64,000 nt of DNA from Mesorhizobium sp. (GTDB lineage Bacteria > Pseudomonadota > Alphaproteobacteria > Rhizobiales > Rhizobiaceae): NCBI RefSeq assembly GCF_017306585.1, contig NZ_JAFKIC010000109.1, positions 30,243-94,242 on the forward strand, given 5' to 3'. Shown piece by piece: positions 9,729-34,260 of the stretch. Every line of letters begins with the position of its first letter. Positions within the stretch are counted from its first letter, which is position 1. Below the pieces are notes generated by a model, which had not been told where the DNA came from, searched no databases, and saw nothing but the letters and a program-made list of their open reading frames with translations. Made by a program: the position numbers and the translations under genes.

Positions 9729-9951
9729 ATCGTGGTTCTTTCGAGTCTGTTCGGGCTCGGAAGCTAAGAGGGAAGCCGGTGAGCGATTTCGCAATGCCGG
9801 CGCTGCCCCCGCAACTGTAAGTAGTGAGCTTTTGTCGAGTAACGCCACTGGCGCTCCGTGCGCTGGGAAGGCCGGCAAGAGTGACGACCTGCGAGCCAGG
9901 AGACCTGCCGCGATGAACTTGAACGTCCACGGGCGGGGTGTCCCGGTGGTG
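9729..9951 (+). promoter_or_regulatory. Cobalamin riboswitch upstream of nrdAB
   Basis: All the conserved blocks of the B12 element occur in order: GGGAAGCCGGTG near 9770, the CGCTGCCCCCGCAACTGTAA core at about 9801-9820, GCCACTG at 9846-9852, CTGGGAAGGCCGG near 9863, GAGCCAGGAGACCTGCC near 9893, and a terminal P13-type hairpin (CCACGGG at 9927-9933 with CCCGGTGG at 9942-9949). It precedes a B12-independent ribonucleotide reductase, so cobalamin binding should switch the genes off. No U-run terminator follows, so control is more likely at translation. Its last 32 bases are identical to those of the metE riboswitch. Confidence 0.95.
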
Positions 9952-9984
9952 CGCTTGCTGCGGCTGTCCGTACAGCTGTAGCGA

Positions 9985-12924
9985 ATGCATGCGCCAAGGC
10001 CTCCGTCTCCAACACCATCGGGGATCATGATGCCGGCGCCTTCCACCACCCACACCAACGGGACCGAACGGGTTCCTTTTCCTATCATCGATACAGCAAC
10101 CCAGCCTTCGCAGCCGGGCTATCAGGTTATCCGCCGCAACGGCTCGGTGACGCCTTTCGACGCCACCAAGATCGCGGTTGCGCTGACCAAGGCTTTTCTT
10201 GCGGTCGAGGGTTCGGTGGCGGCCGGCTCGCGGCGGGTACACGACGTGGTCGAGGAATTGACGGCGCAGGTTTTTGCCGCGCTGACGCGCCGGGCCGATA
10301 CCGGGCGCACCTTCCACATCGAGGAGATTCAGGATCAGGTGGAACTGGCGCTGATGCGCAGCGAGCATCACAAGGTGGCGCGCGCCTATGTGCTCTACCG
10401 CGACGAGCGCAGCCGCGAGCGCCAGGCGGAGAAGAACAGCCCCACCGTGCCGGCGCCGGCGGCGCTGCAGGTCAAGGCCGAGGACGGCAGCCTGTCGCCG
10501 CTCGACGAGGCGCGGCTGCGGCGCGTCATCGACGAGGCCTGCGCGGGCCTCGACGCGGTTTCGGCCGAAACGATCCTCACCGAGACCCGGCGCAACCTCT
10601 ATGACGGTATCACGCTGGATGAACTCTCGCTGGCGCCGATCCTGGCGGCGCGCACGCTGGTGGAAACCGAGCCGAACTATGCCTTCGTCAGCGCCCGTCT
10701 GCTGCTCGACCGCCTGCGGCGCGAGGCGCTGAGTTTCGTTTCGGGTCGCCCGGAACAGGCCACGCAAAGCGAGATCGCGACCCGCTACGCCAGCTATTTT
10801 CCGCAGAGCATCGCCACCGGCATCAAGGCCGAGCTCATCGATCCGGAACTCGGACGCTTCGACCTCGCGCGGCTTGGTGCGGCGCTGAAGCCGGAGCGTG
10901 ACCTGCAGTTCCAGTTCCTTGGCCTGCAGACGCTTTACGACCGCTATTTCCTGCACACCAAAGGCAAGCGCTTCGAGCTGCCGCAGGCCTTCTTCATGCG
11001 CGTCGCCATGGGGCTCGCCGGGCGCGAGATCGACCGCGAGGCGCGCGCCATCGAATTCTACGACCTGTTGTCGTCCTTCGACTTCATGGCCTCGACCCCG
11101 ACGCTGTTCAATTCGGGCACGCTCAGGCCGCAACTGTCCTCCTGCTTCCTCACCACGGTGGCCGATGACCTCGACGGCATTTTCAAGGCGGTGAAGGACA
11201 ATGCGCTGCTGGCCAAATATTCTGGCGGGCTGGGCAATGACTGGACGCCGGTGCGCGGACTCGGCGCCCACATCAAGGGCACCAATGGCGAGAGCCAGGG
11301 CATCGTGCCGTTCCTGAAGGTGGCCAACGACACCGCGATCGCCGTCAACCAGGGCGGCAAGCGCAAGGGTGCGGTCTGCGCCTATCTCGAAACCTGGCAT
11401 GTCGACATCGAGGAGTTCCTCGACCTCAGGAAGAACACCGGCGACGACCGCCGCCGCACGCACGACATGAACACCGCCAACTGGGTGCCGGACCTGTTCA
11501 TGAGCCGTGTCGAGGCCGATGGCGAGTGGACGCTGTTCTCACCGGATGAGACATCGGACCTGCACGACCTCTACGGCAAGGCTTTCAAGACCGCGTACGA
11601 AGCCTATGAGGCCAAGGCTGAGACGGGCGCGATCAAGGTGTTCAGGAAGGTCCGCGCGCTCGACCTCTGGCGCAAGATGCTGACCATGCTGTTCGAGACC
11701 GGGCATCCCTGGATCACGTTCAAGGACCCCTGCAACATCCGCTCGCCGCAGGGCCATATCGGCGTGGTGCATTCGTCGAACCTGTGCACGGAAATCACGC
11801 TGAACACCTCGAAGGACGAGGTGGCGGTGTGCAATCTGGGCTCGGTCAACCTTGCCAACCACATCGCGAAGGACGGGCTCGATCTCGCGCATCTGGCGCG
11901 CACGGTCGGCACGGCCATGCGCATGCTCGATAATGTCATCGACATCAATTTCTACACCATCCCGGAAGCGCGCCAGTCCAACCTGCGCCACCGTCCGGTC
12001 GGGCTCGGCCTGATGGGCTTCCAGGACGCGCTGCAGGCGCTGCGCATTCCCTATGCCTCGAAAGAGGCCGTCGCCTTCGCCGACGCCAGCATGGAAGCGA
12101 TCGCCTGGAATGCGATCTCGGCCTCTTGCGATCTCGCCGCCGAGCGCGGACGCTATCCGAGCTTCGAGGGATCGCTGTGGTCGAAGGGTGTGCTGCCGAT
12201 CGACTCGATCCGCCTTGTGTCCGACGCGCGTGGCACGGTCGTCGACATGGACGGCTCGTCGAGCCTCGACTGGGAAAGCCTGCGCAAGCGCGTCAGGAAG
12301 ACGGGCATGCGCAACTCCAACACCATGGCGATCGCGCCGACGGCGACCATCTCCAACATCTGCGGCGTGGCGCAGTCGATCGAGCCGGCCTACCAGAACC
12401 TGTTCGTCAAATCGAACATGTCGGGCGACTTCACGGTGGTGAACGCCTCGCTTGTGCACGACCTCAAGGCGCGCGGCCTGTGGGACGAGGTGATGATCTC
12501 GGACCTGAAATATTTCGACGGCTCGCTCGGCCAGATCGACCGCGTTCCCGACGACCTCAAGGCGCTCTACGCCACCGCCTTCGAGATCGACTCCGCCTGG
12601 CTGATCGAGGCGGCGTCGCGGCGCCAGAAGTGGATCGACCAATCGCAGTCGCTCAACCTCTACATCGCCAATCCCTCGGGCCGGAAGCTCGACGAGCTCT
12701 ATCGGCTGGCCTGGCGCATGGGTCTGAAGACAACCTACTACCTGCGCTCGCGCTCGGCCTCGCATGTCGAGAAATCGACGCTGAAGGGCACGGACGGCAA
12801 GCTCAACGCGGTGTCGTCGGTGGCGGTCCATGCCGCCCCGCCCGCGCCGATCGTCATCAGCGAGGGCGCCGCGTGGGGTAAGGCCTGCGCCATCGACGAT
12901 CCCGAATGCGAGGCGTGCCAGTAG
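9985..12924 (+). CDS. nrdA: Ribonucleoside-diphosphate reductase, alpha (large) subunit, class I
   Basis: A 979-residue class I catalytic subunit that reduces ribonucleoside diphosphates. Two ATP-cone-like regions lie at about residues 45-135 and 165-255. The barrel shows the active-site SSC (SSCFLTTVADD), the NLCTE triad with the second redox Cys in VCNLGSVNL, and the IAPTATISNICG loop. It ends in CEAC, the redox-active tail. The frame opens at ATG 9985; ATG 10027 (GGGG just upstream) is an equally possible start. It is longer than E. coli NrdA and, with two cones, resembles the large subunits that pair with class Ic NrdB. It is followed by nrdB and preceded by a B12 riboswitch. Confidence 0.95.
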   Translation: MHAPRPPSPTPSGIMMPAPSTTHTNGTERVPFPIIDTATQPSQPGYQVIRRNGSVTPFDATKIAVALTKAFLAVEGSVAAGSRRVHDVVEELTAQVFAALTRRADTGRTFHIEEIQDQVELALMRSEHHKVARAYVLYRDERSRERQAEKNSPTVPAPAALQVKAEDGSLSPLDEARLRRVIDEACAGLDAVSAETILTETRRNLYDGITLDELSLAPILAARTLVETEPNYAFVSARLLLDRLRREALSFVSGRPEQATQSEIATRYASYFPQSIATGIKAELIDPELGRFDLARLGAALKPERDLQFQFLGLQTLYDRYFLHTKGKRFELPQAFFMRVAMGLAGREIDREARAIEFYDLLSSFDFMASTPTLFNSGTLRPQLSSCFLTTVADDLDGIFKAVKDNALLAKYSGGLGNDWTPVRGLGAHIKGTNGESQGIVPFLKVANDTAIAVNQGGKRKGAVCAYLETWHVDIEEFLDLRKNTGDDRRRTHDMNTANWVPDLFMSRVEADGEWTLFSPDETSDLHDLYGKAFKTAYEAYEAKAETGAIKVFRKVRALDLWRKMLTMLFETGHPWITFKDPCNIRSPQGHIGVVHSSNLCTEITLNTSKDEVAVCNLGSVNLANHIAKDGLDLAHLARTVGTAMRMLDNVIDINFYTIPEARQSNLRHRPVGLGLMGFQDALQALRIPYASKEAVAFADASMEAIAWNAISASCDLAAERGRYPSFEGSLWSKGVLPIDSIRLVSDARGTVVDMDGSSSLDWESLRKRVRKTGMRNSNTMAIAPTATISNICGVAQSIEPAYQNLFVKSNMSGDFTVVNASLVHDLKARGLWDEVMISDLKYFDGSLGQIDRVPDDLKALYATAFEIDSAWLIEAASRRQKWIDQSQSLNLYIANPSGRKLDELYRLAWRMGLKTTYYLRSRSASHVEKSTLKGTDGKLNAVSSVAVHAAPPAPIVISEGAAWGKACAIDDPECEACQ

Positions 12925-12946
12925 GCGGCGAAAGCCGAGGTGACAG

Positions 12947-12974
12947 CCGATCTCCCCCACGAGGGGGAGATTGG
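12947..12974. repeat. Palindromic element between nrdA and nrdB
   Basis: An almost perfect hairpin: ATCTCCCCC at 12950-12958, loop ACGA, GGGGGAGAT at 12963-12971, with the stem extending to 12947-12974 through one G-T pair. There is no U-run after it. Short C-rich/G-rich palindromes of this type are scattered through Mesorhizobium intergenic regions. In the nrdA-nrdB gap it could stabilise the upstream mRNA or tune the ratio of the two subunits. Confidence 0.7.
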
Positions 12975-13021
12975 CAGCGTCACCGCCGCGCCGTCTCAAT
13001 AACGAACTGAAGGAAGAAAAA

Positions 13022-14155
13022 ATGCTCGACTGGTCAGAACCCAAAGCGCCGCCCGCCGGTGCGCTCGCTCCTCTCCCCGCGGCGGAAAAGGCTCCGCTCG
13101 CCGATGTCACCGGCCTCGGCCTCATCGAACGCGGCGGCGGTCGTGTTCGTGTCGACGACAAGCGCATGATCAACGCGCGTGCCGATGTTAACCAGCTGCT
13201 CCCGCTCAAATATCGCTGGGCTTGGGAAAAGTACCTCAACGGCTGCAACAATCACTGGATGCCGACCGAAGTGTCGATGCAGGCCGACATCGCGCTGTGG
13301 AAGTCGAAGGACGGGCTGACCGATGATGAGCGGCGCATGCTCAAGCGCAATCTCGGCTTCTTTGCCGCCTCGGAATCGCTGGTCGCCAACAACATCGTGC
13401 TCGCCATCTACCGGCATCTCACCAATCCCGAATGCCGGCAGTACCTTTTGCGGCAGGCCTTCGAGGAGGCGATCCACACGCACACTTTCCAGTACATCGT
13501 GGAGAGCCTGTCGCTCGACGAGGGTGAACTGTTCAACATGTACCGCGAGGTGCCGTCGATCACCGACAAGGCGGCCTGGGCGCTGAAGCACACGCAGCAT
13601 CTCGACGATCCGGATTTCCGCACCGGCACGCCGGAAGCCGATCAGGCGTTCCTGCGCGACCTCGTCGCTTTCTACGTCATCTTCGAAGGCATGTGGTTCT
13701 ACACCGGCTTCGCGCAGATCCTGTCGCTGGGACGCCGCAACAAGATGGTGGGGATCGCCGAGCAGTACCAGTACATATTGCGAGACGAATCCATCCACCT
13801 GAATTTCGGTATCGACGTCATCAACCAGATCAAGATCGAGAACCCCCATCTGTGGACATCGGCCTTCCAGGACGAGGTGCGCGGCATGATCTCCCAGGCC
13901 GCGGCGCTCGAGGCGGCCTATGGCCGTGATACGATGCCGCGCGGGTTCCTCGGCCTCAACGCGGCACTGTGCGAAACCTACATGCACTTCATCGCCAACC
14001 GGCGCTGCGCCCAGCTTGGCCTGCAGCCGGTATTCGCCGAGGTGGAGAACCCGTTCTCGTGGATGTCGGAGGCGATGGATCTGAAGAAGGAGAAGAACTT
14101 CTTCGAGACGCGCGTTATCGAATACCAGAACGGCGGCGCGCTGGCCTGGGACTGA
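13022..14155 (+). CDS. nrdB: Ribonucleotide reductase beta subunit, class Ic-like (Glu/Phe cofactor site)
   Basis: A 377-residue ferritin-like radical subunit, starting at ATG 13022 after GGAAG; the frame is open further upstream. Metal-ligand positions read Glu118, Glu149, His152, Glu222, Glu256 and His259. The spacings (31, 3, 73 to the third Glu, 34, 3) match E. coli NrdB, but the first ligand is Glu instead of Asp84. The radical Tyr122 position is Phe156 (HTHTFQY), with Tyr158 two residues on. Glu/Phe is the signature of class Ic subunits such as Chlamydia NrdB, which store oxidising power in a Mn/Fe centre. Tyr251 also falls where Chlamydia has Tyr222. The Mn/Fe assignment is inferred from these residues. 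Confidence 0.93.
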
Positions 14156-14227
14156 CGGCTGCGTCGGCATCGCAACGCACCGGCGGGCGTTTCCGGTTGG
14201 GGCAGGGGGCTATTGCGCCAAGAGTAT

Positions 14228-15256
14228 TCAGTGGACCGGCGCGTGGTCTCCTGCATGGACAGACGCGTAATGGCGCACGACCCAGGACCGGAACAGCGCG
14301 ACAGCCGGATCGACCATGTCGTCCGGATGGACTGTGAGATAATAGCCGAACCCGGTTTGGCTGGTCGTCTGCGGGAAGGGAGTCACAAGGCGGCCGTCGG
14401 TAAGCTCGGCCGCGAACATGGCGGGATCGACCAATGTCACTCCGCCGCCGGCCATGGCATGTTGCACGGCAAGCGCTTCGGTCTCAAAGGCAAGCCCGCG
14501 CACGGCGCCCAGGTCGATGCCGCAATGGCGCGCGTGGATCGACCAGAAGATATCGAAGGGCTCGCCCTCCAGCTTGACGTGCAGCAGTTCGTTCGCGCGC
14601 AGGAAATCGGCAAGGCCGAGGCCTTCCGCCCGAGCCGCGATCTGTGGCGCGCAGGCTGGTGTCTGGTTGATCATCCAGAGCGGATCGCGAATGGCGTCGC
14701 CGACATGAGGCCGGTCGAAAACAACCGCGATATCGACGCTGCGTCCCGCCGGCAGCCCGACCCCATTGCTGCTCGATATGTCGATCGGCACGCCGGGAAA
14801 CGCGCGGCGGAACTCTGCGATCAGCGATAGCCCCGCGACATGCAGGAATGTCGGCGGCATGTGAACCTTGAGGATGCGGCCGCTGGGGCCCGGCTCGCGC
14901 CGCAGCATCTTCAATGTCTCTTCCATGCGGTCGAACGAGGCCGTCACCACCGGCAGCAATGCGGCGCCGGCAGCGGTCAGCGACATGCCCTGCGCGCGTC
15001 GTTCGAGCAGCCGGCAGCCGAGATATTCCTCCAGCCGCCCGACATGCCGGCTCAACGCGCTCTGCGAGATATGGAGTGCGGCGGCCGCACCGGTGAAACT
15101 GAGCCGTCCGCCGACCGCCTCGAAGGCTCGCAGCGCGTTGAGCGGCAACCAGACCCGGCCGCCTCTCTGCTCCACACCTGACTCAGCGACGGCCTCGGCG
15201 CTCGCATCTTCGACGCAGACGAGCGGCGCACCACTGCTCTCACTGTTGCTCATCAT
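14228..15256 (-). CDS. LysR-family transcriptional regulator (GcvA-like)
   Basis: A 342-residue LysR protein. The helix-turn-helix is at about residues 38-95 (LNALRAFEAVGGRLSFTGAA and SQSALSRHVGRLEEYLG), followed by a periplasmic-binding-protein-like effector domain to the C-terminus. The N-terminal 35 residues before the DNA-binding domain are longer than usual, so a downstream start is possible. It is transcribed away from a Rieske oxygenase gene across a 107-base gap, the standard arrangement for a LysR activator and its target. The effector is not visible. Confidence 0.88.
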   Translation of the reverse strand: MMSNSESSGAPLVCVEDASAEAVAESGVEQRGGRVWLPLNALRAFEAVGGRLSFTGAAAALHISQSALSRHVGRLEEYLGCRLLERRAQGMSLTAAGAALLPVVTASFDRMEETLKMLRREPGPSGRILKVHMPPTFLHVAGLSLIAEFRRAFPGVPIDISSSNGVGLPAGRSVDIAVVFDRPHVGDAIRDPLWMINQTPACAPQIAARAEGLGLADFLRANELLHVKLEGEPFDIFWSIHARHCGIDLGAVRGLAFETEALAVQHAMAGGGVTLVDPAMFAAELTDGRLVTPFPQTTSQTGFGYYLTVHPDDMVDPAVALFRSWVVRHYASVHAGDHAPVH

Positions 15257-15288
15257 CGCCTCCGCCGCTTCGCTTCTTGCCTGTATTC

Positions 15289-15300
15289 GATAGGGTTATC
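15289..15300. promoter_or_regulatory. Possible LysR operator
   Basis: GATAGGGTTATC is a short dyad (GATA at 15289-15292, TATC at 15297-15300) in the gap between the divergent LysR gene and the Rieske oxygenase. LysR proteins usually bind imperfect dyads of this kind between their own gene and the target. The evidence is position and symmetry only. Confidence 0.3.
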
Positions 15301-15363
15301 TAAAAACGCAATTTGAACAGTTCCAGACTGAGGTGCAAAGATTGCCCAAAAGGGGAAACCGCC

Positions 15364-16686
15364 ATGCTCGATCTGGAAAGAATCCGCGACCTCGTCAACC
15401 AGCGCCGGTCCGGTCATACGCTGCCGCAGGATCTCTATAATGGTTCGGAGGTGTTCAAGTTCGATATCGAGGCCATCTTCGGTCAGTCCTGGATTCTAGC
15501 GGGCTTCACTTGTGAGATCCCGAGGCCGCGCGGCTATCTGGCCGTCACGATCGGTGGCTCGCCGGTGGTGATCACACGCGACGGTGAGGGCGTCTATCGC
15601 GCCTTCCACAATTCTTGCCGTCACCGCGGCGCGCAGGTTTGCGCGGACGGTGCAGGTGGGCGCGCGCGGCTCACCTGCCCTTATCACCAGTGGGTGTATG
15701 ATCTCGACGGCAGGCTTGTCCATGCCCGCAATATGCCTGAAGATTTCGAGCCCGCCGAACATGGGCTGCGGCCATTGCATGTCGAAAACGTCGCCGGGGC
15801 GCTGTTCGTCTGCCTCTCCGAAACACCACCTTCATTCGCCCGTTTTCGCGCCGATCTCGAACCGCTGCTCGCCCCGCATCGGCTGGAGGGGGCCAAGATC
15901 GCCTTCCAGAACACGCTGGTCGAGCGCGGCAACTGGAAGCTTGTGATGGAAAATGCGCGTGAGTGCTATCATTGCGGCGTCAGCCACCCCGAACTATGCC
16001 TGACCTTCCCCATCGAGAGCAGTATTGATGGACATTTCACGGCGGCCGAGGATGCGCATTATGATGCTTTCGTCGCCCGCGTCGAAGAAGCCGGGCTCGG
16101 CAAGGGCCCTTTCATCGGACCATGGTGGCAGGTCGAGCGTTTTCCTCTGAACAAGGGCCATGCTTCGCTCACGATAGACGGTGCGCTTGCCTGCAGGAAG
16201 CTGATGGTCGAGGGCGCCGGCGACATAGGCTCGCTGCGCTGGGCCATCGAGCCGCACAGTTTCTGCCACTCGACCGCCGATACCACCGTCTATTTCAGCG
16301 CCATGCCGACGGCGTCGGGAGAAACCGTGGTGACCTGTAAATGGCTCGTCCACAAGGACGCGGTGGAGGGCGTCGACTACGACGTCGAGCATCTCACCGC
16401 CTTGTGGAACGTGACCAATCTTCAGGATCGCGACCTCGTGGAAAACAACCAGCGCGGCGTGAATTCGGTCGGCTATATGCCTGGACCCTACAGCCTGCCC
16501 GACGAATCCTATGTCCAGCGTTTCTCCGACTGGTACTGCGACAAGGCCATGGATTACATCGCTTCACGAACAGGCGTGGACGGCCGTCCGATCGAACTGC
16601 GCGGCGTAATTTCCGGCGCTGTCGAGAGCCCGCCGGGCCAAGTGACGCATGCGGATCAAAGCCGGCTTCCGCTCGGGCAGCAATAA
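15364..16686 (+). CDS. Rieske non-heme iron oxygenase, alpha subunit (GbcA/carnitine oxygenase-like)
   Basis: A 440-residue protein; ATG 15364 follows an AAAGGGGAAA ribosome-binding sequence, and the 17 codons upstream are unlikely to be used. The Rieske [2Fe-2S] ligands are Cys85, His87, Cys105 and His108 (CRHRG and CPYHQW). The mononuclear iron site is in NARECYHCGVSHPE with an Asp near DRDLVENNQ. It belongs with the glycine betaine/carnitine/stachydrine-type oxygenases, which demethylate or cleave quaternary ammonium compounds. It is similar to, but clearly distinct from, the protein at 27079-28314. No reductase partner is adjacent. The divergent LysR gene is the likely regulator. Confidence 0.85.
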   Translation: MLDLERIRDLVNQRRSGHTLPQDLYNGSEVFKFDIEAIFGQSWILAGFTCEIPRPRGYLAVTIGGSPVVITRDGEGVYRAFHNSCRHRGAQVCADGAGGRARLTCPYHQWVYDLDGRLVHARNMPEDFEPAEHGLRPLHVENVAGALFVCLSETPPSFARFRADLEPLLAPHRLEGAKIAFQNTLVERGNWKLVMENARECYHCGVSHPELCLTFPIESSIDGHFTAAEDAHYDAFVARVEEAGLGKGPFIGPWWQVERFPLNKGHASLTIDGALACRKLMVEGAGDIGSLRWAIEPHSFCHSTADTTVYFSAMPTASGETVVTCKWLVHKDAVEGVDYDVEHLTALWNVTNLQDRDLVENNQRGVNSVGYMPGPYSLPDESYVQRFSDWYCDKAMDYIASRTGVDGRPIELRGVISGAVESPPGQVTHADQSRLPLGQQ

Positions 16687-16791
16687 CAGAGCTACGCGGC
16701 GCCAGAAGCCTGGATTGTCTGCCAAAAAATCCGTTCTCATGGACACCCGGGCTACGGCTCGATGCGATATCGTAGCGCCGGGCGTCAAAAG

Positions 16792-18213
16792 TCAGCCCGT
16801 CGAATACGGCGCGAACGAGCTTTGGCTGTCGTCGACCATCAATGTCCTCGTCAGCGGCGGGAAGGCTCGTTGCGGGCAGGCCGGGCGCTCGCAGACCTTG
16901 CAGCCGGCTCCGATCAGCGTGCGCGCGGCCGGATCGTCCTGGACGATGCCTTGCGAATAGACGAGACGGCCAGCATGGTGCAGGTCGCAGCCGAGGCCTA
17001 TGGCGAATGTCTTGGCCGGCGCTCGAAAGCCGCCTCGCGAACTCTCCACCATGCGCGCCACCCACAGGTAGGCGCGTCCGTCCGGCATCTCCGCCACCTG
17101 CGTCAAGATCCGGCCGGGGTTGGAGAAGGCATCATAGACGTTCCACAACGGACAGGTGCCGCCGACGCGCGAGAAGTGGAAATCCGTTGCCGATTGCCGC
17201 TTGGATATGTTGCCGGCGCGATCGACGCGGATCAAAAAGAAAGGCACGCCGCGCGCCTCAGGACGCTGCAGGGTGCTCAGCCGGTGGCAGACCGTCTCGA
17301 AACCAACGCCGAACTCGCGGCCGATCAGGTCGATGTCGTAGCGAAGGCGCTCGGCCAGTTGCAGGAACGGCTGATAGGGTAGCGTCAGCGCGCCTGCGAA
17401 GTAATTGGCAAAGCCGATACGCGCCAGCGAGCGCGCCTCCTCGTTCGAGAAAGAACCGCTGGTAACCAGTTCGTCCATCAGGCCACGCTGCTCGAGGAAG
17501 GCGAGTTGCGTTGCCATCTGGAACGCCTGCTGGCTGCGCCGCAGTCCGCGCGACAGCCACAGGGTCCGCGTGATCGGGTCGTATCTGCGCTGCACGGAAG
17601 AACCGATGTCGTCGGCAAGGTTGGCCAGCCGCACGCCGTGTAGTGCTTCCAGCCTGCCTGCCAGGGCTGGCCCCATCCGGCCCAGCGGCATGCCGAGCTC
17701 GCGGGCAACGGCTTCGGCGGCGCGATCCAGCCCATCGACATAATTGCGGCTGTCGTAGAAGAAATCGCGGACCTCCTCGAATGGCGTCGACGGCGCGCTG
17801 GCGAAGCCTCCCTGCCTGTCGTCCCCCAACCGGGCGGCGTAGGCCGCCGCCTGGTCGCTTGCTTGCTTCAGTCGGCGGCCTTGGGAGATGAAGGCGCGGG
17901 CGAGCGCAGGCATGTTGCCGGCAAGCTCTCGCAGGTCGGCCGCCGAGACGGGTTCGCCGATCGCGGGATCCGACAGCGCCTCGCGCAACTCGCCGATCAG
18001 CCGTGCATCGTCATCGTCGGAGAAGAACTGGACATCCGTGCCGAAGACGGCGTTGAGCTTCAGCAGCACCGAGACGGTCAGTGGCCGCTGGTTGTTCTCG
18101 ATCTGGTTTAGGTAGGACAGCGAGATCGACAGGGCGTCGGCCAGAGCCTGCTGTGTCAGCCTGCGCTCCTCGCGCAGCCGCTTCAACCTTACACCCATGA
18201 ATGCCTTCTTCAC
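16792..18213 (-). CDS. Short-chain acyl-CoA-responsive regulator of the methylcitrate genes (RamB/PrpR/ScfR type)
   Basis: A 473-residue regulator with an N-terminal XRE helix-turn-helix (residues about 8-63, with TQQALADALSIS and SYLNQIENN), a central ImmA/IrrE-like region, and the C-terminal DUF2083-type domain whose Cys residues (GLGCDL and CKVCERPACPQR) resemble the Fe-S or acyl-CoA sensing part of PrpR/RamB. The start is a GTG at 18213 after GAGGT; ATG 18198 is an alternative. It is divergent from prpDCB, and the gap holds two operator-like repeats. Family members activate or repress propionate and acetate genes in response to acyl-CoA. Confidence 0.88.
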   Translation of the reverse strand: MKKAFMGVRLKRLREERRLTQQALADALSISLSYLNQIENNQRPLTVSVLLKLNAVFGTDVQFFSDDDDARLIGELREALSDPAIGEPVSAADLRELAGNMPALARAFISQGRRLKQASDQAAAYAARLGDDRQGGFASAPSTPFEEVRDFFYDSRNYVDGLDRAAEAVARELGMPLGRMGPALAGRLEALHGVRLANLADDIGSSVQRRYDPITRTLWLSRGLRRSQQAFQMATQLAFLEQRGLMDELVTSGSFSNEEARSLARIGFANYFAGALTLPYQPFLQLAERLRYDIDLIGREFGVGFETVCHRLSTLQRPEARGVPFFLIRVDRAGNISKRQSATDFHFSRVGGTCPLWNVYDAFSNPGRILTQVAEMPDGRAYLWVARMVESSRGGFRAPAKTFAIGLGCDLHHAGRLVYSQGIVQDDPAARTLIGAGCKVCERPACPQRAFPPLTRTLMVDDSQSSFAPYSTG

Positions 18214-26689: not shown

Positions 26690-26700
26690 GTACACCGCTC

Positions 26701-26765: not shown

Positions 26766-26769
26766 AATC

Positions 26770-26990: not shown

Positions 26991-27078
26991 GAAGTGCTCG
27001 GGCATGGGTCTATCGACCAAGCACCCGTGCCTTCAACCCTCTCCGCCACCGCGCAGTCCTTGAGCGCGAGGACGGAAC

Positions 27079-28314
27079 GTGGACGTACGCACCGACATGC
27101 TGAGCCGGCTTGGGAACCGCAGCCCCGGCTTCACCCTGGAGCAGCCTTTTTACATCGACCCCGAATACTTCAAGGTTGACATGGAGCTGATCTGGTATCG
27201 CGACTGGCTGTTCGTCGGCCATGACTGCGAGATCGCCAAACCCGGCAGCTTCTTCACCGTCCAGGTTGGCGACTATCCCATCGTGATCGTGCGCGACCAG
27301 AAGGGCGACATCAATGCGTTCCACAATTCCTGTCGCCATCGCGGCAGCCGTGTCTGCACGGCCGACAAGGGGCAGGCGGCAAAGCTCGTCTGTCCTTACC
27401 ACCAATGGACCTACGAACTGGACGGCAAGCTGCTGTTCGCCAGACAGATGGCCGACGGCTTCGACAAGAGCCAGTTCGGGCTGAAGCCGGTCGCCTGCGA
27501 AAGCGTCGGCGGCTACATCTTCATCTGCCTGGCGAAGGAGCCTTCGGATTTCGCGCCGACGCGGGCGGCCCTGGGACCTTATCTCACGCCGCATCGGCTG
27601 AGCGAGGCCAAGGTCGCCTTCGAGAGCACGATCATCGAGAAAGGCAACTGGAAGCTGGTCTGGGAAAACAACCGCGAGTGCTATCACTGCGCGGCCAATC
27701 ACCCGGAACTGTGCAAGACCTTGTCCGAGGCGCCGGGCCTCGTCGGCATCGATGGCGATCCTGAAATGATCGAGCATTGGGACGCATGCGAAGCCGTAGG
27801 CCTGCCGAGCAGGTTCCACATCGATCCGGCCGGCCAGTATCGCGCCACGCGCGCGCCGCTGCTGCGCGATGCGCTGAGCTACACCTTGACCGGAAGGCGC
27901 GCGGTCAGGAAAAACCTCTCCGACAGCGTGCCGCTCGAGCGGATCGGCTCGTTGATGCTGTTCCACTATCCCAACACATGGAACCATGTTCTCGTCGACC
28001 AGGCGGTCTCTTTCCGGGTCATCCCGATCAGCGCCACCGAGACCGCGGTGACGACCAAGTGGCTGGTGCACAAGGATGCGGTCGAGGGCGTCGACTACGA
28101 CCTCGAGGAACTCATCCATGTCTGGCAGGAAACCAACGACCAGGACCGCCGCATCGTCGAGGAAAATGCTTTCGGCATCCACTCGCCAGCCTATGAGCCC
28201 GGTCCCTATTCGGCGGTGCATGAAGAGGGGCCGATGCAGTTCGTCGACTGGTATGCGCGGTTCATCGGGCCAAGGCTGGAGGACCGCAATTTGGGCCTGC
28301 GCAACGTCGCCTGA
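27079..28314 (+). CDS. gbcA: Glycine betaine demethylase, Rieske oxygenase subunit (GbcA-like)
   Basis: A 411-residue Rieske oxygenase, starting at GTG 27079 with GAGGACGG upstream; ATG 27097 is an alternative. Rieske ligands are Cys85, His87, Cys105 and His108 (CRHRG and CPYHQW), and the iron site is in ENNRECYHCAANHPE. The GbcA family removes one methyl of glycine betaine as formaldehyde, leaving dimethylglycine; a GbcB-type reductase is needed and is not nearby. It is controlled by its own promoter and B12 riboswitch. The next unit contains betaine-homocysteine methyltransferase and formaldehyde dehydrogenase, which supports betaine as substrate, though stachydrine or carnitine cannot be excluded. 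Confidence 0.83.
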   Translation: MDVRTDMLSRLGNRSPGFTLEQPFYIDPEYFKVDMELIWYRDWLFVGHDCEIAKPGSFFTVQVGDYPIVIVRDQKGDINAFHNSCRHRGSRVCTADKGQAAKLVCPYHQWTYELDGKLLFARQMADGFDKSQFGLKPVACESVGGYIFICLAKEPSDFAPTRAALGPYLTPHRLSEAKVAFESTIIEKGNWKLVWENNRECYHCAANHPELCKTLSEAPGLVGIDGDPEMIEHWDACEAVGLPSRFHIDPAGQYRATRAPLLRDALSYTLTGRRAVRKNLSDSVPLERIGSLMLFHYPNTWNHVLVDQAVSFRVIPISATETAVTTKWLVHKDAVEGVDYDLEELIHVWQETNDQDRRIVEENAFGIHSPAYEPGPYSAVHEEGPMQFVDWYARFIGPRLEDRNLGLRNVA

Positions 28315-28363
28315 CGGCTCGGCCTGATCCAGCGGCAGAGGTTTGCTGGACCAACGGGCCAAT

Positions 28364-28428
28364 TGTCGTCTTTGCGTTTGGCCAATGTCGTTTTCGTATG
28401 GACGGCAGCCGGACCCCGGTGATTAGAT
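28364..28428 (+). promoter_or_regulatory. bmt promoter with tandem direct repeats
   Basis: TGTCGTCTTT at 28364-28373 and TGTCGTTTTC at 28386-28395 repeat with cores 22 bases apart, then TTAGAT at 28423-28428. From the second repeat to the start of the aptamer is 52 bases, and from TTAGAT to the aptamer is 16, both identical to the gbcA promoter. The -35 region has no consensus. One activator probably drives both units. Confidence 0.6.
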
Positions 28429-28432
28429 CGCC

Positions 28433-28655
28433 ATGTTCAAGGTGCCCTTCGGCTGTCCGGCCGGAGGGATAATTGGGAAGCCGGTGAGAATCCGGCGCTG
28501 CCCCCGCAACGGTAGCGAAGCTTACGTTTCGACTTATGCCACTGGGTCCGAAAGCCCGGGAAGGTGTCGAAACGGGTCCGCAAGGACGGCTTCGGAGCCC
28601 GGAAACCAGCCTCGAACGAATTGGAACTCGACTGATCGCGGTGGGCGGTCAAGAG
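28433..28655 (+). promoter_or_regulatory. Cobalamin riboswitch upstream of bmt-fdhA
   Basis: It has AAGGTGCCC at 28439, GGGAAGCCGGTG at 28475, the CGCTGCCCCCGCAACGGTAG core, GCCACTGGG near 28538, GAGCCCGGAAACCAGCC near 28596 and the terminal stem GATCGC (28634-28639) with GCGGTC (28645-28650). It is the sister of the gbcA riboswitch, sharing an identical 30-base 3' block. A tetraloop hairpin, TCGGCC-GAAA-GGCCGA, follows at 28667-28682 without a U-run. Cobalamin should reduce expression of the downstream genes. Confidence 0.95.
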
Positions 28656-28739
28656 GCAGATGCGGATCGGCCGAAAGGCCGACAGGTCCGTGGCTTTCCT
28701 CCATCACCACCAGGTTCAGTCCTTGGCAGAAGGACGAAC

Positions 28740-29039
28740 ATGGATTCGTACAATGAAGTATCCGGGCTCGCCCCCGGCAGGCCGGGCGCCCAGCACGAGC
28801 CACGCAAGCGCGATCCGGCGACGATGGCCGCCGTTTCACCCTTGCCTCCACCGGAAGAGGTTTTCGCCGATTGGCTGCTGTCGGTGCCGCATGACGCCGA
28901 TCTGGCGCACGCGGCGAGATGCCAGATCGATCTCATCGACCGACGCCTTTCGCTGCATCCCGACGTGCAGGTGTTGCGCACGCTGCTTGCCGCCGTTGCC
29001 GGCACCAGCGTCCGGGCCGCACCCGTAACCAACCTCTGA
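28740..29039 (+). CDS. Small protein of unknown function between riboswitch and bmt
   Basis: A 99-residue protein starting at ATG 28740, with GAAGGA seven bases upstream. The first 30 residues are polar and Pro/Arg-rich; the rest (EEVFADWLLSVPHDADL and ARCQIDLIDRRL) looks like two or three amphipathic helices. There is no signal peptide or membrane segment. I do not recognise the family. It is the first gene under the B12 riboswitch and ends 29 bases before bmt, so it may couple riboswitch control to bmt translation or act with Bmt or formaldehyde dehydrogenase. A competing frame at 28660-29028 has a good ribosome-binding site but an implausible Arg/Cys/Pro-rich composition. Confidence 0.6.
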   Translation: MDSYNEVSGLAPGRPGAQHEPRKRDPATMAAVSPLPPPEEVFADWLLSVPHDADLAHAARCQIDLIDRRLSLHPDVQVLRTLLAAVAGTSVRAAPVTNL

Positions 29040-29068
29040 AGTCCCGCATTCTGAAAAAGGAATATCCA

Positions 29069-30130
29069 ATGTCTGCCAAATCACCCATCCCGGCAAAGCG
29101 CGGCCTGCTCGAACGCCTCGACACCGACGCCGTCATCTGCGCCGAGGGCTATCTGTTCGAACTCGAACGCCGTGGCTATCTCCAGGCCGGGCCGTTCGTG
29201 CCCGAGGTCGTCATCGAGCATCCCGAAGCCGTGACGCGCCTGCACGAGGACTTCGTCCATGCCGGCTCGGAAGTCGTCGAGGCTTTCACCTATTACGCGC
29301 ACCGCCAGAAGCTGAAAGTGATCGGCCGCGAGGACATCCTCGAGAAGATCAATCGCCAGGCGCTGCGCATCGCCAAGGATGTGGCGGACCGCGTTGGCGA
29401 CCTGATGGCCGGCAACATCTGCAACACCAATGCCTATGAAGCCACGGACAAGAAGACCCATGATGCCGTGCGCGCCATGTTCGAGGAACAGATCGGCTGG
29501 GCAGTGGAGGAGGGCGCCGACTTCCTGATCGCCGAGACCATCGACTGGTATGGCGAGGCCGAGATCGCTCTCGACGTGATGAAGAAGACCGGTCTGCCGA
29601 CCGTGGTCACGCTTTCGGTCCACCGCGAGGAGAAGATGTTCGATGGCGTCTCCGTCGTCGATGCCTGCAAGCGGCTGGAGGCCGCCGGCGCCGATGTGGT
29701 CGGGTTGAACTGCCAGCGCGGACCGAAGACGCTAATGCCGGTGGTGCGCAAGGTGCGCGATGCCGTGTCCTGCCATGTCGCCTCGCTGCCGGTGCCCTAC
29801 CGCACGACCGAAGCGGAGCCTACCTTCCAGTCTCTGACCGACCGCGCCTGCTCCTGCATTCCCGGCAACCGGCCTTTCCCGACCGCGCTCGATCCGTTCA
29901 CCTGCAATCGCTACGAATGCGCCGAATATGCCCGCGAAGCCTACGATATGGGCGTGCGCTACATCGGGCTCTGCTGCGGAGCGGCACCCCATCATATCCG
30001 CGCGGTCGCCGAGGCACTGGGCCGCACCGTTCCGGGAAGCCGTTATTCGCCCGACATGTCGAAGCACGCTTTCTTCGGCAGTGATGCGGCGATCCCGGAC
30101 GCATACAAGGGCCGCCGCGTCGATATCTGA
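29069..30130 (+). CDS. bmt: Betaine-homocysteine S-methyltransferase
   Basis: A 353-residue homocysteine methyltransferase close to eukaryotic BHMT and rhizobial Bmt. The zinc ligands are Cys215 (GLNCQRGP) and the Cys302-Cys303 pair (LCCGAAPHHIRA). The N-terminus (LLERLDTDAVICAEGYLFELERRGYL) is BHMT-like rather than MetH- or MmuM-like. It moves a methyl from glycine betaine to homocysteine, giving methionine and dimethylglycine without folate or B12. The start at ATG 29069 follows AAAAAGGAA. It is co-transcribed after the small protein and behind a B12 riboswitch, so it should rise when MetH lacks its cofactor. Confidence 0.93.
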   Translation: MSAKSPIPAKRGLLERLDTDAVICAEGYLFELERRGYLQAGPFVPEVVIEHPEAVTRLHEDFVHAGSEVVEAFTYYAHRQKLKVIGREDILEKINRQALRIAKDVADRVGDLMAGNICNTNAYEATDKKTHDAVRAMFEEQIGWAVEEGADFLIAETIDWYGEAEIALDVMKKTGLPTVVTLSVHREEKMFDGVSVVDACKRLEAAGADVVGLNCQRGPKTLMPVVRKVRDAVSCHVASLPVPYRTTEAEPTFQSLTDRACSCIPGNRPFPTALDPFTCNRYECAEYAREAYDMGVRYIGLCCGAAPHHIRAVAEALGRTVPGSRYSPDMSKHAFFGSDAAIPDAYKGRRVDI

Positions 30131-30219
30131 ATGCGCTTCGTGCCCGGCCGATCGCGATGGAGACGGGAGTAGCGTCGCATCGGCTGGCATCACGGGAAAC
30201 AGTTGCACCTGAACAAGCA

Positions 30220-30241
30220 GCCCGGCGGCGGACCGCCGGGC
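30220..30241 (+). other. Stem-loop between bmt and fdhA
   Basis: A perfect nine-base-pair hairpin: CCCGGCGG at 30221-30228, loop CGGA, CCGCCGGG at 30233-30240, with an outer G-C pair. There is no U-run, so it is not a standard terminator. It more likely protects the bmt message or sets the level of fdhA, whose GGGAGGAAG ribosome-binding sequence follows 17 bases later. Confidence 0.6.
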
Positions 30242-30269
30242 GGGAAGTCAACAGCAAGGGAGGAAGTCC

Positions 30270-31460
30270 ATGAGCAGGAACAGAGGCGTGGTCTATGTCG
30301 GACCGGGCAAGGTGGAGGTGCGCGACATTCCGGATCCGGTTTTCGCGGCGCCGGACGGGCGCAAGATCGAGCATGCCGTGATCCTGAAAGTGATCTCCAC
30401 CAATATCTGCGGCTCCGACCAGCACATGGTGCGCGGCCGCACCACGGCCGAACCCGGCCTGGTGCTCGGCCATGAGATCACCGGCGAAATCATCGAGAAA
30501 GGCAGCGATGTCGAGATGCTCGAGGTCGGCGACATCGTGTCGGTGCCCTTCAACGTCGCTTGCGGCCGCTGCCGCTGCTGCAAGGCGCAGGACACCGGCG
30601 TGTGCCTCACCGTCAACCCGGCGCGTGCCGGCGGCGCCTATGGTTATGTCGACATGGGAGGCTGGATCGGCGGTCAGGCCCGCTACGTGACGGTTCCCTA
30701 TGCCGATTTCAACCTGCTCAGGTTCCGCGACCGTGACCGGGCGATGGAGAAGATCCGCGACCTCACCATGCTTTCAGACATCCTGCCGACCGGCTTCCAT
30801 GGCGCGGTGAAGGCCGGCGTTGGGGTGGGGTCCACCGTTTATGTCGCGGGCGCTGGCCCGGTCGGTCTTGCCGCCGCCGCCTCTGCGCGCATTCTTGGCG
30901 CTGCGGTGGTCATGATCGGCGACTTCAACAAGGAGCGTCTGGCGCATGCGGGCAAGGTCGGCTTCGAGCCGATCGATCTTTCCGCCAGTGACCGTCTAGG
31001 CGACATGATCGCCGAGGTGACGGGTAGCAACGAAGTCGACTGCGCAATCGACGCGGTCGGCTTCGAGGCGCGCGGCCATAGCGGCGGCGAACAGCCGGCC
31101 GTTGTGCTCAACCAGATGATGGAGATCACCCGTCCGGCGGGCTCGATCGGCATTCCCGGCCTCTATGTGACGGAGGATCCCGGCGCGGTCGACAATGCCG
31201 CCAAGCACGGCAATCTGTCGGTGCGTTTCGGCCTCGGCTGGGCGAAGGCACAGTCGTTCCATACCGGGCAGACTCCCGTCGTGAAATACCATCGCCAGCT
31301 GATGCAGGCGATCCTGCACGACCGCTTGCCGATAGCCGACATCGTCAACGCCAAGGTGATCAGCCTGGAAGAGGCGGTGCAGGGCTATGAGAGTTTCGAC
31401 CAGGGCGCCGCACGCAAATTCGTGCTCGACCCACACGGCGACATCCTGAACGCTGCCTGA
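30270..31460 (+). CDS. fdhA: Formaldehyde dehydrogenase, glutathione-independent
   Basis: A 396-residue zinc-dependent medium-chain dehydrogenase of the glutathione-independent FDH type, which oxidises formaldehyde with NAD. The catalytic zinc Cys is Cys47 in NICGSDQHM, with GHEITGEI following; the structural zinc set is in ACGRCRCCKAQDTGVC; the NAD fold has GAGPVGLAAA. The long GGWIGGQARYVTVPYADFNLL segment and length near 400 match this subgroup. It probably belongs to the bmt transcript, 140 bases downstream. Its role is likely to clear formaldehyde released by GbcA and the later dimethylglycine and sarcosine demethylations. Confidence 0.93.
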   Translation: MSRNRGVVYVGPGKVEVRDIPDPVFAAPDGRKIEHAVILKVISTNICGSDQHMVRGRTTAEPGLVLGHEITGEIIEKGSDVEMLEVGDIVSVPFNVACGRCRCCKAQDTGVCLTVNPARAGGAYGYVDMGGWIGGQARYVTVPYADFNLLRFRDRDRAMEKIRDLTMLSDILPTGFHGAVKAGVGVGSTVYVAGAGPVGLAAAASARILGAAVVMIGDFNKERLAHAGKVGFEPIDLSASDRLGDMIAEVTGSNEVDCAIDAVGFEARGHSGGEQPAVVLNQMMEITRPAGSIGIPGLYVTEDPGAVDNAAKHGNLSVRFGLGWAKAQSFHTGQTPVVKYHRQLMQAILHDRLPIADIVNAKVISLEEAVQGYESFDQGAARKFVLDPHGDILNAA

Positions 31461-31474
31461 CGGCCCGCGTCCTG

Positions 31475-31575
31475 GAGCGGTTCAGCGTTTGATAGAATCG
31501 CTGACCCGCTCTAACTATCTGTTTTTACGCAATTCCGGACGCAAAACCGCTTCGCACTTTTGCTGGAATTGCTTT
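31475..31575. repeat. RIME-type mosaic intergenic repeat
   Basis: Two palindromes are joined: GAGCGG-TT-CAGCG (31475-31487) pairs with CGCTG-AC-CCGCTC (31499-31511), and GCAATTCC (31529-31536) pairs with GGAATTGC (31565-31572), enclosing GCAAAACCGCTTCGCACTTT. This structure matches what I know of Rhizobium-specific intergenic mosaic elements. It lies between convergent fdhA and metE and may end transcription from both sides. Confidence 0.8.
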
Positions 31576-31623
31576 GGCCGAGGTAACGGTGCCGCCAACT
31601 ATCTGCTGGCGGCACCTGACCGA

Positions 31624-33957
31624 TTAGGCAACTGTGCGCAATTGCCTCGCCGCTTCCACCATATTGACCAGCGCCGGCCGAACCTCTTCCCAACCACGTG
31701 TCTTGAGGCCGCAATCGGGATTGATCCACAGTTGCGTGTCGCTGAGGCGCTCACGGGCCAGCGTCATCAGATCGATCATCTCGCCGACTGCCGGGACACG
31801 AGGTGAGTGGATGTCATAGACGCCGGGACCGATCTCATTCAGATACTTGTGGGTCCGGAAGGCGTCGAGAAGCTCCATCTTCGATCGTGATGTTTCGATC
31901 GAGATGACATCCGCGTCCATGGCGCTGATCGCATCGAGGATGTCGTTGAATTCCGAATAGCACATATGGGTATGGATCTGCGTGCCGTCACCGACGCCGG
32001 AGGAGGCGAGGCGGAAGCAGTCGACAGCCCAGTCGAGATAGGTCTTCCAGTCGGATTTGCGCAGTGGCAGGCCTTCACGCAAGGCTGCTTCATCGATCTG
32101 GATCATGGCGGCCTCCGCCGCTTCGAGGTCGATAACCTCGTCGCGAATGGCGAGCGCGATCTGGCGGCAGGTCTCGTTGCGCGGGATGTCGTCGCGCACG
32201 AATGACCAGTTCAGGATGGTCACTGGCCCGGTCAGCATGCCTTTCATGGGCTTTTGCGTCAGCGATTGCGCGTATTGCCACCATGCGACCGTCATCGGCC
32301 GCGGCCGCGAGACGTCGCCGAATATGATTGGCGGTCGGACGTAGCGAGATCCATAGCTCTGCACCCAGGCATGCCTGGTGAATGCGAAGCCCGAGAGCTG
32401 CTCGCCGAAATACTGCACCATGTCGTTGCGTTCGAATTCGCCATGCACCAGCACGTCGAGGCCGATTTCCTCCTGCCAGCGGACGGCCGCGGCGGTCTCC
32501 CTCTCCAGGAAGGACTGATAGTCGATATAGCTCAATTCGCCCTTGGCGTGGTCGGCGCGCGCCTTGCGCACCTGCGCGGTCTGCGGAAACGAACCGATCG
32601 TCGTGGTGGGAAAACTCGGCAGGCCGAGCTTCCGCGCCTGGAGCTCTTGGCGCGTGGCGAAGTCGCTATGCCGGTGCCGCATGGTCTCGGTGACGCCCAG
32701 CAGGCGCCCCTCGACCAATGGATCGTGAACCTTGAGCGACGATGCGCGCGATTGAACGGCTGCGGCCGATGCCTGCAACTCCTTTGAAACCACATCCTTG
32801 CCAGCGCCAAGCGCATCCGCAAGCAGCGTGAGTTCGTCCATCTTCTGGATCGAAAAGGAGAGCCAGGATCTGAGGTCAGGGTCCAGGCCGGTTTCCAGTT
32901 CCACGTCGATCGGAACATGGAGGAGCGAACAGGACGGCGCAATCTCGATCCGGTCGAGCGGCCAGCCAGCCACGATCGGTCTGATGTGGTCGAGAATGGC
33001 CGGCAGGTCCGCCCGCCAGACATTGCGACCGTCGATCAATCCGAGCGACAGGATCTGGTCTTTACGGGAGAGGCGGGAAACCGGCTCAAGCTGTTCCGGT
33101 GCCCTTACCAGGTCGACGTGTAACCCGGCCACCGGCAAGGCAAGGGCTGTTTCCAGATTGTCGCCCAGGCCGCCGAAATAGGTGGCCAGCATGATGTTGA
33201 TATCCGGCACCGTCGTGGAGAACCGCTGATACGCAAGTTCGAGGCCGATACGCTCGGCCGGGTCGAGGTCGAGGGCGAGACAGGGCTCATCGATCTGCAC
33301 CCACCTGGCGCCGGCTTGCGACAGTTGCTGAAGGAGTTGAACGTAAACCGTTATCAGCCTCGGCAGCAAGGATATCGGGTTGAAACCGCCACCACGCGAT
33401 TTGGCCAGCTTGAGAAAGGTTACCGGCCCAAGAATGACTGGACGCGTGCGGATACCGAGAGCCGCCGCCTCACGAAACTCGCCGAGCGGCTTGGTCGAAC
33501 AGAGTTCAAACGTCTGGTCGGCCGACAATTCGGGGACCATGTAGTGATAGTTGGTGTCGAACCACTTCGTCATCTCGAGCGCTGCGACACCGTTGGCATG
33601 AGGGCCATGATTGCAGGCAGCGGAGTCATGATCGCCCTGATTGCCTCGGGCCATCGCGAAATAGACATCGAGCGGAACCTCGCCGCCGGTCCAGCCATAT
33701 TCTTTCGGGATCGCGCCGACCATGACGGCCGTGTCGAGGACATGATCGTAAAGCGAAAAATCGTTTGACGGGATTTTCGTGATGCCGCGATCCCGCTGCT
33801 CGATCCAATTTGCGGCGCGGAGTTTCTTGGCCGCTTCGAGCAGGTCGGCGGCCGAGGTTTTCCCGGACCAATAGCTCTCCAGCGCAGCCTTGAGCTCGCG
33901 GCGACGGCCGATGCGAGGAACGCCAAGAGTGGCGACCGGAACTGTAGGAATAGACAT
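31624..33957 (-). CDS. metE: Methionine synthase, cobalamin-independent
   Basis: A 777-residue MetE. It has the N-terminal half-barrel, then the catalytic half with ESFVRDDI-type segments: VLVHGEFERNDMVQYF, THMCYSEF (zinc His and Cys) and INPDCGLKTRGW (zinc Cys). It transfers methyl directly from 5-methyltetrahydrofolate polyglutamate to homocysteine. I start it at ATG 33957 (MSIPTV); ATG 33969 is also in frame, and the longer open frame runs back through the riboswitch. It is controlled by a cobalamin riboswitch and a SahR-like site, so it should replace MetH when B12 is short. Confidence 0.96.
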   Translation of the reverse strand: MSIPTVPVATLGVPRIGRRRELKAALESYWSGKTSAADLLEAAKKLRAANWIEQRDRGITKIPSNDFSLYDHVLDTAVMVGAIPKEYGWTGGEVPLDVYFAMARGNQGDHDSAACNHGPHANGVAALEMTKWFDTNYHYMVPELSADQTFELCSTKPLGEFREAAALGIRTRPVILGPVTFLKLAKSRGGGFNPISLLPRLITVYVQLLQQLSQAGARWVQIDEPCLALDLDPAERIGLELAYQRFSTTVPDINIMLATYFGGLGDNLETALALPVAGLHVDLVRAPEQLEPVSRLSRKDQILSLGLIDGRNVWRADLPAILDHIRPIVAGWPLDRIEIAPSCSLLHVPIDVELETGLDPDLRSWLSFSIQKMDELTLLADALGAGKDVVSKELQASAAAVQSRASSLKVHDPLVEGRLLGVTETMRHRHSDFATRQELQARKLGLPSFPTTTIGSFPQTAQVRKARADHAKGELSYIDYQSFLERETAAAVRWQEEIGLDVLVHGEFERNDMVQYFGEQLSGFAFTRHAWVQSYGSRYVRPPIIFGDVSRPRPMTVAWWQYAQSLTQKPMKGMLTGPVTILNWSFVRDDIPRNETCRQIALAIRDEVIDLEAAEAAMIQIDEAALREGLPLRKSDWKTYLDWAVDCFRLASSGVGDGTQIHTHMCYSEFNDILDAISAMDADVISIETSRSKMELLDAFRTHKYLNEIGPGVYDIHSPRVPAVGEMIDLMTLARERLSDTQLWINPDCGLKTRGWEEVRPALVNMVEAARQLRTVA

Positions 33958-33959
33958 GG

Positions 33960-33984
33960 CATACCCCATTTGGTTGGGGGCATG
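33960..33984 (-). promoter_or_regulatory. Hairpin over the metE ribosome-binding region
   Basis: On the minus strand CATGCCCC pairs with GGGGTATG around a nine-base loop (33960-33967 with 33977-33984). The GGGG is the only ribosome-binding-like sequence near the ATG at 33957. It could therefore be the translational output of the upstream riboswitch, although I cannot see an antisense segment in the aptamer that would toggle it. Confidence 0.45.
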
Positions 33985-34036
33985 GGTCAAGCGGATGCGT
34001 GCAAGGGAAGGCGGCCGAAGCTGCCATCTGCATGCT

Positions 34037-34260
34037 ACCACCGGGACACCCCGCCCGTGGACGTTCAATTCGTCGGGGCAGGTCTCCTGGCTCGCGGGTC
34101 GTCGCCCCTGTCCGTCTTCCCAGGCCGAACGCCTCAGTGACTTGTTGGACAGCGGCTCGCCGCTCACAGTTGCGGGGGCAGCTCCGGTATCGCTGTGGCC
34201 AAGGCCATGCTCACCGGATTCCCTCTTAGCTCCAGTCGCTCTAATACGATTGGAGAACCA
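34037..34260 (-). promoter_or_regulatory. Cobalamin riboswitch upstream of metE
   Basis: Read on the minus strand, the leader has TGGTTCT, AGAGGGAATCCGGTGAG, GGAGCTGCCCCCGCAACTGT, a CACTG box, CTGGGAAGACGG, GAGCCAGGAGACCTGCC and the P13-type hairpin CCACGGG with CCCGGTGG. The block at 34037-34068 is identical over 32 bases to the end of the nrdAB riboswitch (9919-9950). The metE start lies about 80 bases downstream. Cobalamin is expected to switch metE off, as is well established for metE in many bacteria. Confidence 0.96.

Follow-up and report, generated by a model that had tools for sequence, protein, structure and literature searches.

Cobalamin riboswitches on nrdAB and metE, whose products are B12-independent isoenzymes, are established. 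The excerpted text of Sun et al. 2013 (PMC3766115) treats B12 isoenzymes as an accepted category of genes under riboswitch control. A search of the open-access literature, a scope outside which the classic 2003 papers lie, turned up neither gbcA nor bmt as a gene under cobalamin riboswitch control, and no mobile set of such genes. We describe here a 64 000-nt stretch of the Mesorhizobium sp. contig NZ_JAFKIC010000109.1 (hereafter the window), in which four cobalamin riboswitches precede nrdAB, a gbcA-like gene, a group consisting of a small open reading frame (ORF), bmt and fdhA, and metE. The locus shares with the known cobalamin regulon (RF00174; Sun et al. 2013, as excerpted) its aptamer class and the logic of riboswitch-controlled B12-independent isoenzymes, but adds gbcA and bmt with a conserved platform motif of their own, and gathers prpDCB and queH with the rest in one transferable segment. 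We consider it probable that this segment is a horizontally acquired B12-independence island, a source of B12-free isoenzymes for reactions that in the host otherwise depend on B12.

Riboswitches were called with Rfam RF00174 (gathering score 31.5) over the window, the whole genome, and loci in relatives. The window holds four, each full length, at 110–131 bits (E 1e-26 to 9e-33): those of nrdAB at 9716..9926 (plus strand, 131.4 bits) and metE at 34060..34277 (minus strand, 126.2 bits), with what we term a type I expression platform, and those of gbcA at 26760..26960 (plus strand, 115.4 bits) and the small ORF–bmt–fdhA group at 28423..28628 (plus strand, 110.0 bits), with a type II platform. 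A first-pass annotation of this DNA had reported four complete B12 aptamers ahead of these same genes, and had proposed a check with Cobalamin covariance models; all four proved to be far above threshold, 10–27 nt from the coordinates first given, and the genes that it named are present, with gbcA to be understood as encoding a gbcA-like Rieske demethylase. No further riboswitch reaches the gathering score inside the window, in agreement with its remark that prpDCB and queH are present without visible riboswitches. The clustering that it pointed out is beyond chance: RF00174 occurs 11 times in the genome (7.09 Mb, 385 contigs), and only 17 of 400 000 random placements, with the 7.09 Mb treated as one line, put four of the 11 within 24.6 kb.

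As an island, the segment would pair each B12-free enzyme with a B12-dependent one that it can replace: NrdAB for NrdJ, MetE and Bmt for MetH, PrpDCB for methylmalonyl-CoA mutase, GbcA for a corrinoid-dependent (MtgBC-like) betaine demethylase, and QueH for QueG. The genome also encodes NrdJ (571.6 bits, over the cut-off, and with its neighbours), methylmalonyl-CoA mutase, and QueG (453 bits, cut-off 200), and a single contig carries an MtgBC-like set of MttB-family methyltransferase, MtgC-like corrinoid protein (209 bits, cut-off 370), DUF1638, MTHFR-family, and pterin-binding proteins. When B12 is low, Bmt (methyl transfer from betaine to homocysteine), GbcA (oxidative betaine demethylation), MetE, and NrdAB would come on together, and FdhA would dispose of the formaldehyde from betaine demethylation by GbcA; PrpDCB and QueH have no riboswitch and are probably either regulated otherwise, by the RamB-like regulator, or constitutive.

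The genome is probably that of a B12 producer, because it encodes CobN (split across two contigs) and has riboswitches upstream of a btuB-like receptor gene (L001), cobW (L002), a BluB-like gene of the nitroreductase family (L009), and cbtA (L006; a second cbtA hit, L011, reaches only 32.9 bits); the riboswitches at L005 and L010 precede an ABC ATPase gene and a second gbcA-like gene, respectively. ‘B12 shortage’ would then mean limitation of cobalt or of synthesis rather than auxotrophy, a nuance to the first-pass view of a neighbourhood shaped around such shortage, which otherwise fits the B12-free set. Among congeners, an RF01482-type match on the minus strand (L112 6794-6880, G046) lies upstream of a CbtA-like ORF named by sequence alone.

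Relative to a congener, the segment is an insertion. By blastn, the alignment of G009 covers 1-8302, where the opp operon ends, and resumes at 34646, at dusA; in G009 the two blocks are 832 bp apart. G008 aligns up to 8302 and again from 34641, and the alignment of a third congener, G005, starts at 34378. These alignments place an inserted segment of ∼26 kb at 8303..34377, between oppDF and dusA. Within the genus bmt and nrdA are rare: of 146 genomes, the present one included, 3 have bmt and 9 have nrdA. One of the congener nrdA frames (L107, G028) is interrupted by a single in-frame TAA. Several findings weigh against a simple island. The opp-dusA site is variable and did not receive one clean insertion, because the dusA regions of three of the six congeners read (G005, G046, and G002) have other genes and no opp beside dusA, and two others have 5.5 kb (G008) and 2.8 kb (G066) at the site. 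Nor does base composition deviate (63.4% GC in the island, 63.1 and 62.8% in the flanks), the ends of the segment share no word longer than 9 nt that could serve as a terminal repeat, and none of its identified genes encodes an integrase.

The set recurs outside the genus. We surveyed Bmt at 80 genome loci, 8 of them with at least 79% identity to the window Bmt and 72 below. RF00174 lies before bmt or a gbcA-bmt group in 7 of the 8 closest loci; the exception, L022, from a metagenome bin labelled Anaerolineae, has its riboswitch 7 kb from bmt and on the opposite strand. Among the distant loci, RF00174 is absent from all 30 tested by Rfam, and a regular-expression scan, which missed the real Rfam hit in L022, saw no riboswitch in the other 42 of the 72. 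Rfam finds 12 riboswitches in seven cassette loci; of seven congener loci examined, six have hits, 11 altogether. Afifella has riboswitch-nrdAB-riboswitch-gbcA-gbcB-bmt-ramB-prpDCB-queH in contiguous order; its bmt is 82% identical to that of the window, not clearly above the 81% of rpoB. In Erythrobacter tepidarius, a cultured isolate from a different order, the arrangement is ramB-riboswitch-nrdAB-riboswitch-gbcAB-small ORF-bmt, with a phage-type integrase alongside. Identities to the window are 89.5% for bmt, 86% for nrdB, and 83% for nrdA, against 72% for rpoB, and the Erythrobacter Bmt forms a pair with one from Mesorhizobium (90/82) within a six-row clade (99/97). On these comparisons, the set has spread by horizontal transfer between orders, because the Erythrobacter Bmt is ∼90% identical to that of the window where rpoB is only 72% identical, and is nested in Mesorhizobium. 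An ALIL pseudoknot (of an insertion sequence-type element), along with the integrase, adjoins the Erythrobacter set (L019 11846-14301). A search of 96 plasmid records found no Bmt at least 60% identical, and hence no plasmid bearing the set.

These findings bear on whether the locus is no more than an ordinary cobalamin regulon, with riboswitches that repress B12 isoenzymes, and genes brought together through operon-like drift. ‘Isozymes of B12-dependent enzymes’ is indeed already a regulon category in the excerpted text of Sun et al. 2013 (PMC3766115), and the regulatory half of this account is part of our own best explanation; its other half, the denial of an island, has the evidence for insertion and transfer against it, since the set is missing at the site in G009, is rare in the genus, and is common to distant orders at identities above that of rpoB. 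We therefore regard the account as a whole as improbable. The evidence goes beyond the first-pass annotation, in that the genes form a set that was inserted here and has spread horizontally.

The composition of such sets varies. G030 has riboswitch-metE, plus riboswitch-nrdAB with gbcAB, and Phyllobacterium has riboswitch-bmt-fdhA. In G031, riboswitch-nrdAB is near riboswitch-mesX-mesD (L122 13186-15600), with the riboswitch directly 5′ of mesX. MesD/MesX is described as an oxygen-dependent, B12-free methionine synthase in the excerpted text of PMC7857596; on that description it is, like the window set, a B12-independent methionine module, here with a riboswitch, but it is absent from the window, which shows that sets of this kind vary in their methionine module. 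A 42-bit riboswitch over a short metE-like fragment (L119 15833-16066) looks like a decayed riboswitch-metE.

The product of bmt (29069..30130, plus strand; PF02574) resembles animal betaine-homocysteine methyltransferase (BHMT) rather than the S. meliloti Bmt. Its best solved-structure matches are animal BHMT (PDB, E 4e-62), its identity with S. meliloti bmt is a mere 28%, and on PRK07534, the NCBIfam betaine-homocysteine methyltransferase model, it scores 103.6 bits against a cut-off of 338. We take BHMT residues C217, C299, and C300 to be the zinc-binding cysteines, and W44, Y77, E159, and Y160 to form the betaine pocket. The window Bmt keeps all three cysteines and has F, Y, E, and T at the four pocket positions, whereas S. 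meliloti Bmt has G at the Y77 position and a gap at W44. Compared with the animal structures, it thus shares with BHMT of the animal/SAR11 type its sequence similarity to BHMT structures, the zinc cysteines, and the Y77 and E159 positions, and differs in the changes of W44 to F and Y160 to T, in being bacterial, and in standing behind a B12 riboswitch. Relatives 53-54% identical occur in two 1.4-Mb alphaproteobacterial genomes. In the excerpted text of PMC12478193, S. meliloti Bmt is argued to be without betaine-binding residues and to be the MtgE of a B12-dependent enzyme, with true BHMT argued for the SAR11 type only. Were the window Bmt likewise MtgE, the homocysteine module of a B12-dependent split methionine synthase, its riboswitch would not be B12-sparing. 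The S-methyl_trans domain common to both, the MtgC-like protein of this genome, and the two changed pocket positions are compatible with that assignment, but we judge it very improbable given the animal BHMT structure matches, the distance from S. meliloti bmt and PRK07534 (104 bits on the latter, cut-off 338), and the retention of Y77, E159, and the three cysteines. The window Bmt is likely to be B12-independent on this comparison.

The assignment of gbcA (27079..28314, plus strand) to a Rieske quaternary-ammonium N-demethylase rests on Rieske (PF00355) and ring-hydroxylating catalytic (PF00848) domains above cut-off. It shares with GbcAB of Pseudomonas and Chromohalobacter the Rieske oxygenase (in relatives, also the reductase) of the same models, and differs in its scores below the equivalog cut-offs, its cobalamin riboswitch, and its want of an adjacent gbcB. 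Some of this counts against a function in betaine demethylation: the GbcA model NF058607 gives 502.8 bits (cut-off 670), the next element 3′ of the window gene is the second riboswitch rather than gbcB, and the partner reductases of relatives are themselves below curated cut-offs, the GbcB-like genes directly after gbcA in L019, L020, L021, L023, and L121 scoring 353-394 bits (cut-off 500). The enzyme might instead use another quaternary amine, such as stachydrine, in which case its link to B12 would not be the replacement of a corrinoid betaine demethylase. The Rieske structures 3vca and 4qup presumably include Stc2. On these the window enzyme scores 516 bits, versus 503 on the GbcA model, where it is below cut-off; the S. 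meliloti stc2 product is a relative at 55%; and on a Gemmobacter plasmid (L182 3693-3884) a cobalamin riboswitch likewise precedes the gene of an enzyme grouping with Stc2. Yet in a 16-row tree Stc2 and the Gemmobacter enzyme form a separate starred pair (99/96), the window enzyme groups with GbcA-like proteins adjoining fdhA or gbcB (93/96, not starred), and one riboswitch is common to gbcA and bmt in five relatives. We therefore think another substrate unlikely, though of the alternatives raised here it deserves the most weight, and retain betaine as the predicted one. A further riboswitch of this kind occurs on pSymB of S. meliloti strain Ak57, where RF00174 (100 bits, L177 3684-3886) precedes gbcAB with a diverged platform and a gbcA 64.5% identical to that of the window. 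The homologues in A. tumefaciens, Paracoccus, and Rhizobium CB3090 have no RF00174 at threshold.

The leaders fall into two layouts, type I before nrdA, metE, and mesX, and type II before gbcA and the small ORF-bmt. Loops resembling L13 and complementary to a GCCCCC loop are visible in the leader sequences. With B12 bound, the L5-L13 kissing loop would lock the P13 hairpin while the Shine-Dalgarno sequence is held in a hairpin; with B12 absent, the P13 sequence would pair with the anti-Shine-Dalgarno strand and release it. We infer this OFF polarity for the window riboswitches by analogy with established cobalamin riboswitches. Of the 25 leaders listed for folding, nrdA_L023 and gbcA_L021 were dropped for pattern mismatch, and the differing leaders of L020 and L017 were left out. 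For type I, the predicted unpaired value of the Shine-Dalgarno sequence was 0-0.05 in 13/13 with P13 blocked; with P13 free it was partly exposed in 11/13 (0.14-0.85), and two stayed at 0.01. Values were above the mean of shuffled P13 sequences in 11/13, and at most 8 of 100 shuffles reached the value in 10/13. The type I models fit an OFF switch on translation.

Type II folding did not follow suit, and here the models lend switching no support: the Shine-Dalgarno sequence was occluded with or without P13 in all 10 sequences, and P13 shuffles gave equal results. An anti-sequester helix proposed from the strictly conserved CCACC and CAGUCC was discarded, as neither unconstrained folding nor shuffles were in its favour; it lay 4-8 kcal/mol above the minimum in nine of 10 comparable sequences and was equal in one, the 12.7 kcal/mol of the window gbcA not being comparable because the folded segment extends beyond the GTG start. 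Conservation is the one line of evidence that points to type II switching. The gbcA platform (26961..27078, plus strand) has a 21-nt motif and an AGTCCT/AGGAC hairpin ahead of the GTG start. When 397 genomes of the order were searched blind for this motif, 11 of them yielded 13 matches between them, compared to none for a reversed-pattern control. Eleven of the 13 have an aptamer core upstream (by pattern); ten of these are followed by gbcA and one by small ORF-bmt. This genome accounts for three of the 11, and eight further genomes of the order have the gbcA riboswitch. The remaining two, each with a mismatch, have neither aptamer core nor gbcA/bmt.

Curated NCBIfam cut-offs are exceeded by five gene products of the segment: nrdA (class Ia ribonucleotide reductase alpha, 10027..12924, plus strand; PRK07207 1713 bits, cut-off 965), nrdB (12971..14155, plus; PRK07209 673 bits, cut-off 309), metH (B12-dependent methionine synthase, 22880..26689, plus; PRK09490 2149 bits, cut-off 1497), fdhA (glutathione-independent formaldehyde dehydrogenase, 30270..31460, plus; TIGR02819 706 bits, cut-off 637), and metE (B12-independent methionine synthase, 31624..33957, minus; PRK05222 1124 bits, cut-off 541). 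The nrdA start is placed at 10027, within a longest ORF from 9985, on account of a GGGG hairpin just 5′. The metH gene, overlooked in the first-pass annotation, is immediately 5′ of the gbcA riboswitch, an arrangement that congeners G028 and G093 share (L187, L123). Between nrdB and metH lie a LysR-type regulator gene (14228..15256, minus; NCBIfam LysR-family matches, none above cut-off), a second gbcA-like Rieske oxygenase gene without riboswitch (15313..16686, plus; GbcA model 422 bits, cut-off 670), a RamB-like regulator gene (16792..18213, minus; NF038139 595 bits, cut-off 700) divergent from prpD, the genes prpD (2-methylcitrate dehydratase, 18312..19916, plus; NF042438 902 bits, below the cut-off of 950), prpC (citrate/2-methylcitrate synthase family, 19941..21107, plus; PF00285), and prpB (2-methylisocitrate lyase family, 21117..22037, plus; PF13714, PF00463), and queH (21952..22722, plus; PF02677 216 bits), whose ORF overlaps prpB at its 5′ end and whose real start is probably further downstream. 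The small conserved protein (99 aa, 28740..29039, plus) gave no family match in profile searches; its orthologues in 5 relatives show excess third-position differences, it has the motif SPLPPPEEVFxDWLxSVP, and in the window and relatives its gene stands between gbcB or a riboswitch and bmt. An ORF at 8562-9407, in the leftmost part of the inserted segment, resembles PIG-L deacetylase weakly, with a score below cut-off.

The first-pass suggestion that B12-sparing logic extends to betaine-based methionine synthesis gains support from the animal-type Bmt, from the recurrence of the gbcA riboswitch in the order and on the S. meliloti plasmid, and from the B12-dependent counterparts in the genome. 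We give roughly even credence to a broader generalization, that Alphaproteobacteria exchange a modular B12-independence island replacing most central B12-dependent steps, that gbcA and bmt have a dedicated platform variant within it, and that betaine demethylation is B12-switched between MtgBCD and GbcAB, S. meliloti included. If the island is what it appears to be, the cobalamin regulon gains betaine demethylation and betaine-driven methionine synthesis, and freedom from B12 would be gained in one transfer, not gene by gene, which bears on the evolution of B12 dependence in communities. It also bears on how S. meliloti uses betaine, whether by Bmt, by MtgBCD, or by an overlooked riboswitch-controlled GbcAB, a question that is testable in that organism.

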